Positions 44,322-47,433 of a stretch of DNA of 47,825 nucleotides are shown here, piece after piece. Both the position numbers and the translations under genes were made by a program. This DNA comes from a bacterium (lineage in GTDB: Bacteria > Bacteroidota > Bacteroidia > NS11-12g > UBA955), in NCBI GenBank assembly GCA_029945665.1, contig JAQSCZ010000017.1, positions 1 to 47,825 on the forward strand, written 5' to 3'. The notes under the pieces were generated by a model. The model had not been told where the DNA came from, searched no databases, and saw only the letters and a list, made by a program, of their open reading frames with translations. Numbering within the stretch: the first letter of the stretch is position 1; each line of letters starts with the position of its first letter.

Positions 44322-44660
44322 ATGGCAATGAGCAAAAAATCATTATTTGATAGTAACGAAGCAGATTTGAGTGTTATTTGTAAGGCCCTTGGGCACCCAG
44401 CAAGAATCAGAATTATAAAATTGTTGTTAGCAAAAAACGATCAAACTTGCCAGCAAATAGTTGATAAACTTCCTTTAAGTCAATCAACTGTTTCTCAACA
44501 TTTAAGCGAATTAAGATCTGCCAATTTATTGAACGCTAAAAATTACAAGACCAGTGTTATATATAGTGTAGATAAAGATTACTTGGCAAAGGCTCAGAAA
44601 ATGTTCTCTGACTTGTTTTATGCTCACATACTGAATGTAAAGCAAACTTCTTTATTTTAA
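44322..44660 (+). CDS. ArsR family winged-helix regulator
   Basis: A 112-residue DNA-binding protein. CKALGHPARIRIIKLLL is the ArsR opening, and TCQQIVDKLPLSQSTVSQHLSELRSANLL is the helix-turn-helix, followed by a wing (SVIYSVDKDYL). The ELCVCD metal site of SmtB/ArsR sensors is absent, so a metal-independent or other ligand mode is likely. An in-frame ATG at 44328 is an alternative start. Its 3' end overlaps the XRE-type gene convergently by 9 nt. Confidence 0.9.
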   Translation: MAMSKKSLFDSNEADLSVICKALGHPARIRIIKLLLAKNDQTCQQIVDKLPLSQSTVSQHLSELRSANLLNAKNYKTSVIYSVDKDYLAKAQKMFSDLFYAHILNVKQTSLF

Positions 44661-44990
44661 ATCGGTTACCACCATTTCAAAGGTACTTAATTGCTTTGTA
44701 ATTGATAGATTCGTATCTTTCAATGTTCTAATTTGAGCCAAAAGCTTATATTTTAGTGCATCCTTATCATCTGTTTCAGATTTATACATCTCCCCTTTAT
44801 CCAATATAAGCCATTCCGCACTAATTTTAGGAAAATTGATTAAAACAGCTATTACAAGGTCTAAGCTTGCCTTGTTTCTTCCTGATGCCAAATGAGAAAG
44901 GACGGCATTAGAAATACCTAATTTATTGGCAAAGTCAAGCCTACTCATTCCTGAACTTACAAATACTTGTATTATTTTACTCTCAATCAT
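44652..44990 (-). CDS. XRE-type helix-turn-helix regulator
   Basis: A 112-residue protein with an N-terminal Cro/CI-type helix-turn-helix (MSRLDFANKLGISNAVLSHLASGRNKASLDLVIAVLINFP), then SAEWLILDKGEMYK, the usual Bacteroidota linker, and a C-terminal coiled-coil-like helix (KLLAQIRTLKDTNLSITKQLSTFEMV) for dimerisation. Three palindromic sites start 1 nt before its start codon, which strongly suggests autorepression. Its target genes elsewhere are unknown. Confidence 0.88.
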   Translation of the reverse strand: MIESKIIQVFVSSGMSRLDFANKLGISNAVLSHLASGRNKASLDLVIAVLINFPKISAEWLILDKGEMYKSETDDKDALKYKLLAQIRTLKDTNLSITKQLSTFEMVVTDLK

Positions 44991-44991
44991 G

Positions 44992-45049
44992 TTTACAAAT
45001 GTAAATTATAACCTTTACATTTGTAAACAAAGTGTTTTACATTTGTAAA
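44992..45049. promoter_or_regulatory. Three palindromic operators spaced 22 bp
   Basis: O1 TTTACAAATGTAAA (44992-45005), O2 TTTACATTTGTAAA (45014-45027) and O3 TTTACATTTGTAAA (45036-45049) share TTTACA/TGTAAA arms around a 2-bp centre, AA in O1 and TT in O2 and O3. Centres are exactly 22 bp apart, so all three face nearly the same side of the helix. O1 contains TACATTTG on the minus strand and O3 contains it on the plus strand, while O2 supplies TTTA at 20 nt from either. The layout looks like mirrored divergent promoters covered by one regulator, most likely the XRE protein. Confidence 0.75.
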
Positions 45050-45447: not shown

Positions 45448-47433
45448 ATGAACAAAAAATTACTATTGCTTGCATTGGGATTACCATTCCTACTAAATGC
45501 TCAAAAGTCAGCAAGGCCTGACATCCAGCCCGCTCAAGGCTTATTATTAACCCCAAATGTTGAACACTTTACGGAAAAACAAACAGATTCTATCTCTTCA
45601 AATTCTGTAATGACCTCTAAATCATCAACTAAAAGAGGTACTTCAACTTCCTATAATTTCATACAAATTGGAAATACTTACTATGATTTGCAGACGAATG
45701 CTAGTATTGGTCGTAGAATAATGTTACTTCCAAACGGTAAGGTATCAGCTGTATGGACGACTTCTGATAACAAAACAATTGGTTTCCCCAACAGAGGAAC
45801 TGGTTATAACTTCTATGATTCTCTTGCTTGGTTCCCTAGCCCTATTCATACCCCTCGCCTTGAAACTTCTAGAACTGGCTGGCCCTCACTTGGTGTCAAC
45901 GGCAATAGCGAATGGGTAATGGGTCACGATGCTACATTGGGAGGATTCGTAAAATCGACAAACAGCTCTATTGGAAGTAAATCATGGACTTCATCTTCAG
46001 CTGTGCTGACTCAAATTAATAAACGTCCAATTTGGGGTAGAGTTGCAAACAACGGAAATTATTTCCATTGCGTTGCAAATTATTCTGATTCGGGTGCAAT
46101 TGGTGAAAAGAGAGCACCGACAATCAATGGTGTTTTTGCTCCTATGACCTACAGCCGATCAACAGATGGTGGTGTTACATGGTCAACACAACACATGCTA
46201 TTACCAGGTTATGACAGTTCAAGATATGTTTCTGGTGGTGGCGATCAATATGCAATTGATGTTAGAGATTCAATTGTTGTGATTGTTTCAGGAGATATAC
46301 ATGAAGATGTTGCAATGTGGAAATCTACGGACAATGGCTTAACATTCAACAAAACGATTATGGATACCTTCAATTATTCGCCTTACAGAGATACCATGGT
46401 ATTTGTTGGTAGCCCTTTTGTTTGTGACGGGTCATTAGATGTAATTATTGATAAATCAGGAGCCGCACACGCTTTTTGGGGTGTAACTAATGTAACCAAA
46501 AGAAATAAAAGTGCTGACAGTAGTTTCTTTTCCCCAGCCCAATCCTTATTGGCTTATTGGAGCGAAAATACACCTTTAACTCAATTTATTGCGGCAGGTT
46601 CTCAATTCCCAATAGATCCAAATCCAGATCTTAATGTAGGCGGACTCTCTGACACAACCTATTCTGTTTACCCTGGCACATACGCTCCAAGACAAGCTAA
46701 TTTCTTGCTAAGAGATGGTTCATCTGCTACCTTACAAGGTGCACGTTTAACCAATACAGCTTTATTGCGTTCCCCTTCTGCTGGTATGGATAACAATGGT
46801 AACATCTTCGTTAGTTTTTCATTGCCCGTTGCAGGCGATGTTGATGATGCATTCTGTAATTTTAGAGATATTATGATGGTGCATTCTACAGACAATGGTT
46901 TAACTTGGGAAAGACCAATCGATATTACTAAAATAGCCGGAAGTGAAGAAGATTTTGGCTGTGTTGCAAAAAAAGTTGACAATTTCGTTCACTTGATTTT
47001 CCAACAAGATGAATCTACCGGCACCAATTTATCAAACCGTGCAGGTGATGTTTCTTTAATTGGTGACAATGGTAATTATATTATGTATGCTGCAGTTCCT
47101 GTATCAAAAATTTTAGATGGTACAATTGGCAATAGCTACACAAAAATTGATAAGGTTATTAATTCAAAAGAAATATTTATTGTTTCTCAGAACCAACCGA
47201 ACCCTTTCAGCTCAAATTCAGAAGTTTTAATTTGGTTAGAAAATCAAGCCGATGTTACTTTAGAAATTACTAACATGATGGGCCAAGTAATTTCAACTCA
47301 AACTTACTCTGAAATGAGTGCTGGAAATCAAATTTTAAAAATCAATGGCGACGCTTTAACAACTGGTATTTATTTTTATACTGTAAAAACAAGTACAAAC
47401 AGTGTTACTCAAAAAATGATGATTCAACGTTAA
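45448..47433 (+). CDS. Secreted Asp-box (sialidase-fold) protein, T9SS type A cargo
   Basis: A 661-residue protein from ATG 45448, which gives a clean signal peptide (MNKKLLLLALGLPFLLNAQK). The body is a beta-propeller with Asp-boxes STDGGVTW, STDNGLTF and STDNGLTW, as in sialidases and BNR-repeat proteins. I did not identify the Arg triad and FRIP motif of true sialidases, so enzyme activity is unproven. The C-terminus is a type A sorting domain (QNQPNPFSSNSEVLIWL, LTTGIYFYTVKTSTNSVTQKMMIQR). It is likely surface-exposed or released. A strong terminator follows. Confidence 0.88.
   Translation: MNKKLLLLALGLPFLLNAQKSARPDIQPAQGLLLTPNVEHFTEKQTDSISSNSVMTSKSSTKRGTSTSYNFIQIGNTYYDLQTNASIGRRIMLLPNGKVSAVWTTSDNKTIGFPNRGTGYNFYDSLAWFPSPIHTPRLETSRTGWPSLGVNGNSEWVMGHDATLGGFVKSTNSSIGSKSWTSSSAVLTQINKRPIWGRVANNGNYFHCVANYSDSGAIGEKRAPTINGVFAPMTYSRSTDGGVTWSTQHMLLPGYDSSRYVSGGGDQYAIDVRDSIVVIVSGDIHEDVAMWKSTDNGLTFNKTIMDTFNYSPYRDTMVFVGSPFVCDGSLDVIIDKSGAAHAFWGVTNVTKRNKSADSSFFSPAQSLLAYWSENTPLTQFIAAGSQFPIDPNPDLNVGGLSDTTYSVYPGTYAPRQANFLLRDGSSATLQGARLTNTALLRSPSAGMDNNGNIFVSFSLPVAGDVDDAFCNFRDIMMVHSTDNGLTWERPIDITKIAGSEEDFGCVAKKVDNFVHLIFQQDESTGTNLSNRAGDVSLIGDNGNYIMYAAVPVSKILDGTIGNSYTKIDKVINSKEIFIVSQNQPNPFSSNSEVLIWLENQADVTLEITNMMGQVISTQTYSEMSAGNQILKINGDALTTGIYFYTVKTSTNSVTQKMMIQR

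Follow-up and report, generated by a model that had tools for sequence, protein, structure and literature searches.

A 22-bp-phased triple operator overlapping the promoter of an XRE-type regulator gene in a genus of Bacteroidota: a probable autoregulatory array

The window, the whole 47,825-nucleotide stretch of DNA analysed here, carries three copies of a 14-bp inverted repeat immediately upstream of a gene for a small XRE-type DNA-binding protein. We consider it very likely that these copies form an autoregulatory operator array at which the protein represses its own gene. The sequence-only reading had arrived at a triple operator with a 22-bp phase overlapping the XRE promoter, and comparative evidence ties this arrangement to the XRE gene. 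The elements concerned are as follows.

44652..44990, minus strand: XRE-type HTH regulator gene, 112 aa, the presumed array binder (HTH_3; homologues with the same upstream palindromes; structure model)
44992..45005, minus strand: operator O1, reading TTTACATTTGTAAA on the gene strand; the copy nearest the start, carries the gene-directed −7 box; zero mismatches
44996..45003, minus strand: within O1, predicted −7 box TACATTTG for sigma-ABfr in the XRE promoter; fits TAHHTTTG, 4–5 nt to the start site
45014..45027, unstranded: operator O2; zero mismatches; centre 22 bp from O1; presumed to cover the XRE promoter's −33 region
45036..45049, unstranded: operator O3; zero mismatches; centre 22 bp from O2

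All three copies have the motif TTTACANNTGTAAA and begin at 44992, 45014 and 45036, in steps of 22 bp. Each consists of 6-bp arms flanking an AA or TT centre; the earlier description of three phased 14-bp palindromes is exact in its copies, positions and steps, but with such centres the repeats are not perfect palindromes. A single base, 44991, lies between O1 and the minus-strand ATG of XRE at 44990, which confirms the placement of the array 1 nt upstream of the gene. Eight further matches are found in the window, each with two mismatches. Elsewhere in the 3.79-Mb genome there is one exact copy, as there is of the reversed control pattern, which is background level, and this genome contains no second 22-bp pair even when three mismatches are allowed. 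One-mismatch sites are in mild excess (55 versus 30 in the control), so that weak extra targets may exist in this genome. No exact-site regulon emerged from the 17 genomes of the genus, in which sites outside the arrays are no more frequent than in the control and, where inspected, fall mostly within open reading frames. In the genus, the array seems to serve the gene of the regulator alone.

Relatives of the XRE protein are present in 40 of 59 genomes, and upstream regions were read at the 30 retained loci, among them that of the window. Conservation beside XRE orthologues, the point on which the sequence-only reading had staked its case, was found: all 15 same-genus XRE loci have an array of three to five copies, and the array is absent from both genus genomes in which the XRE gene was not detected (these genomes are 82–83% complete). 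Allowing at most one mismatch, we counted 61 upstream copies in the genus, against 0.18 in shuffled sequences; the members of the genus are related, so that such counts, including the sample of −7 box orientations, are partly non-independent. In the rest of the order, 30 copies were counted against 0.14. A scan of 108 genomes of the order for 22-bp pairs, made independently of the protein, gave 16 genomes with a pair and no control hits. Fifteen of these are the genus genomes with the XRE gene, and the sixteenth, from the same family but outside the genus, has its pair again at the XRE locus.

The spacing within the genus arrays is strict, with 44 of 46 intervals at exactly 22 bp. The copies occupy a grid at about −15, −37, −59, −81 and −103 with respect to the start codon, a register held in most genus loci, and the O1-type copy keeps the same register across the 15 arrays or lies one step further upstream. 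Among the 61 copies the arms are almost invariant and the central two bases are variable. The identity of the 8-bp spacers is near random, at 0.30 within arrays and 0.33 between them versus 0.28 expected. The conserved feature is therefore the length of the spacer and not its sequence, and the copies are unlikely to stem from recent tandem duplication.

In Flavobacterium johnsoniae, the −7 element TAHHTTTG is situated 4–5 nt from the start site, and the −33 element is weak (PMC6847099). The box TACATTTG reads leftward in O1 and rightward in O3, as had been noted, but O2 reads rightward too. The TTTA of O2, which had been put forward as a −33 element, differs from the consensus TTTG, and this claim is not upheld, the −33 element being weak in F. 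johnsoniae in any case (PMC6847099). The consensus palindrome produces a −7 box in the direction of the gene only when its centre is TT, and one in the opposite direction only when it is AA. In all 15 genus arrays, one of the two copies nearest the start contains a gene-directed box (p=0.0007 against random orientation, for arrays that are related to one another). Beyond the genus, the box lies inside the palindrome at every one of 15 further loci in the order and at 22 of 29 in other families, and the claim of a gene-directed −7 box within the palindrome is thereby sustained. The copies thus overlap the regulator's own promoter, as in multi-operator autoregulators, the box falling within the start-proximal copy in the genus arrays.

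From the position of the box, the XRE transcript is predicted to start at 44991 or 44990, giving a nearly leaderless mRNA; in relatives whose box lies one or more copies further up, a leader of about 20–45 nt is expected. Leaders exceed 10 nt in 87% of the predicted transcripts of F. johnsoniae (PMC6847099), and leaderless mRNAs make up 5.5% in F. psychrophilum (PMC9723704).

The XRE protein is assigned to HTH_3 (Pfam) over residues 12–60 with a score of 25.1 bits, just above the cut-off of 23. A structure model built from a two-sequence alignment (pLDDT 77.8, pTM 0.50) shows a long C-terminal helix besides the HTH. Among solved structures, its closest fold matches are to XRE-type HTH proteins, at weak E-values. 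The top NCBIfam model, NF041951 for RstR-type phage repressors, scores 19.7 bits, far under its cut-off of 80, and membership of the RstR family was rejected.

The association of repeat and gene extends to other families. Exact pairs with a gap of 4–24 bp occur in three of 395 genomes of the phylum, each directly upstream of an independently found XRE homologue. At 29 loci of other families, 41 upstream copies with at most one mismatch were counted, against 0.27 in shuffled sequences and 2.6 expected from the remainder of the same loci; such a copy is missing at seven of the 29. The 22-bp phase is not kept in families f2, f5 and f6. Whereas the 22 bp of the genus amount to about two helical turns, the intervals in f2 are 26/19 and 15/18–19 bp, and those in f5 and f6 are irregular.

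At 21 of these 29 loci, a gene for an M14 carboxypeptidase-like protein is divergent to XRE; two examples match PF00246, and the others were assigned by the motif QMHGNE. At 16 of the 21 loci, a palindrome with no more than one mismatch lies 130 nt or less from the M14 start, and at 12 of the 21 a site contains an M14-directed −7 box. The M14 gene is probably a second target of the regulator in these families, judging from the sites before it. The loci with the palindromes before the divergent M14 gene are found in f6 (L066–L068, L071–L074, L077–L079, L081 and L082) and in f5 (L057, L060, L061 and L064). A BLAST search with one f6 protein as query detected no M14 gene in the genus.

At five f6 loci (L068, L071, L073, L077 and L079), the XRE start codon falls inside the palindrome TTTACAATGGTAAA, at −30 from the protein match, so that an operator copy overlaps the translation start. 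Phage and plasmid records gave only distant XRE matches; two of the five records read have similar sites and three do not, and no relatives were confirmed in viral contigs. Similar sites occur in a Phocaeicola plasmid record carrying a distant XRE homologue, and a fecal phage scaffold (L116, MT836585.1) has similar palindromes at −99 to −22 before an XRE gene, one of them exact. A small contig (L098, G013:C265) has two exact palindromes 64 bp apart, at 1871 and 1935; no XRE gene was recognised on it, and its origin may be phage or contaminant.

These observations suggest the following mechanism. Each palindrome would probably bind one XRE dimer, and three dimers two turns apart, on nearly one face of the helix, could contact one another and bind cooperatively. 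The centre of O1 would provide the sigma-ABfr −7 box and O2 would cover the −33 region, so that protein on O1 and O2 would block RNA polymerase and thereby repress transcription of the XRE gene itself. Since dimers on O1 and O2 would cover both promoter regions, autorepression offers the simplest interpretation. That the XRE protein is the binder is a plausible inference, to which the co-conservation of gene and array lends indirect support; repression rather than activation is likewise plausible, and the same holds for cooperativity between dimers. Within the genus, the strictness of the two-turn phase speaks for contact between adjacent dimers; since the spacing differs in f2, f5 and f6, cooperativity through the 22-bp geometry would not be general.

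The OR and OL regions of phage lambda each have three operators for an HTH dimer (CI, Cro), about two helical turns apart and overlapping promoters. The present system shares the operator triple, the approximate two-turn spacing and the promoter overlap, but lacks a peptidase-type repressor domain, a divergent lytic promoter and a Cro partner, and its chromosomal neighbourhood is conserved in the genus. RstR-type repressors (NF041951) are likewise small XRE repressors, but no phage genes are found among the neighbours of the array that were read. The closest documented parallel appears to be the C proteins, and the array would work like multi-operator autoregulators of this kind. C.Csp231I is an XRE-type protein whose own promoter contains two inverted repeats and whose transcript is apparently leaderless, and in Esp1396I a second box lies upstream of another gene (PMC4824078). 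Common to C.Csp231I, C.Esp1396I and the present protein are a small XRE-type HTH and inverted repeats within the regulator's own promoter; the apparently leaderless transcript there has its counterpart in the nearly leaderless one predicted here. There are, however, two copies there versus three to five here, and the repeat sequences are unlike. No restriction-modification genes were found among the neighbours read, and membership of the restriction-modification controllers was rejected.

The C proteins also suggest that the array might be a dual switch, in which the upstream copies fill first and aid RNA polymerase and the promoter copy later represses. C.Csp231I, with its two repeats, acts both ways (PMC4824078), and the several copies upstream of the −7 box copy and the nearly leaderless mRNA predicted here would fit; nevertheless, O2 lies over the −33 region in this species, where a second copy should block as well, and several relatives have an extra copy downstream of the predicted start, which suits repression, so that we regard this as rather unlikely. 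Other explanations turn on the neighbouring genes, two of which are listed here.

44322-44660: ArsR-type gene, convergent with XRE; 3′ ends overlap by 9 bp; pair in 15/15 genus loci
45448-47433: sialidase-like protein, predicted to be secreted by the T9SS; Por_Secre_tail scores above its cut-off, the BNR repeat below

The window neighbours are ArsR, a LipA acyltransferase, an M42 peptidase and a T9SS protein; the LipA-acyltransferase gene is a conserved neighbour in 14 genus loci, and one locus is incomplete. That another protein binds the array, such as the ArsR-type regulator whose gene adjoins XRE throughout the genus, is highly improbable, since, at the loci read in other families, XRE and the palindromes stay together beside different neighbours. 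The sequence-only reading had further proposed a symmetric divergent design around O2 with a rightward promoter, by which O2 and O3 would drive a transcript to the sialidase-like gene, co-regulated with XRE. Rightward TACATTTG boxes in O2 and O3 and the palindromes before the divergent M14 gene in other families favour this. The symmetric divergent design is not supported here: O2 also reads rightward, the far-side gene is not conserved and the direction of the outermost copy varies, its outward −7 box being limited to some species. The sialidase-like gene is about 400 bp away. The gene across the array varies in the genus, being sialidase-like in four members and another gene elsewhere; in at least six relatives, a gene judged transporter-like from its sequence lies upstream in the same direction as XRE. 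As the neighbour across the array differs between members, a rightward promoter is not a conserved function, and we hold its operation here to be unlikely. It is extremely improbable that a DNA or RNA hairpin, formed by O1 pairing with O2, is the functional element: the 71-nt strand does fold with a 16-bp stem (z −4.56), but such a stem follows from two mirrored palindromes, and an Rfam search gave no match. The centres vary across species (AA, AT, GA, CC, GC), which breaks the stem and leaves each palindrome intact, so that the hairpin is not conserved. Finally, the phased platform of three to five sites, apparently the only one of its chromosome, might hold an ordered XRE oligomer with a further role, such as marking or organising that chromosomal site, and be maintained even though the M14 gene of other families was not detected in the genus; this idea is very doubtful.

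Autorepression from a phased array remains the preferred reading. No description of the operator or of the regulator family came up when open-licence literature was searched for the 14-bp words and for autoregulation by XRE proteins in Bacteroidetes, and provisionally, within that limited literature, the operator appears to be unreported. For a regulator family that occurs in several families of a single phylum, the analysis yields a concrete operator sequence, a rule for its spacing and the probable targets. The operator would double as the unusual −7 box of the phylum, the centre dinucleotide alone setting whether a copy is a promoter and in which direction. With three to five copies on one 22-bp grid and a shifted promoter, the genus offers a natural series on the number and phase of operators in autoregulation, and the pairing of XRE with M14 in other families is a first lead to function.
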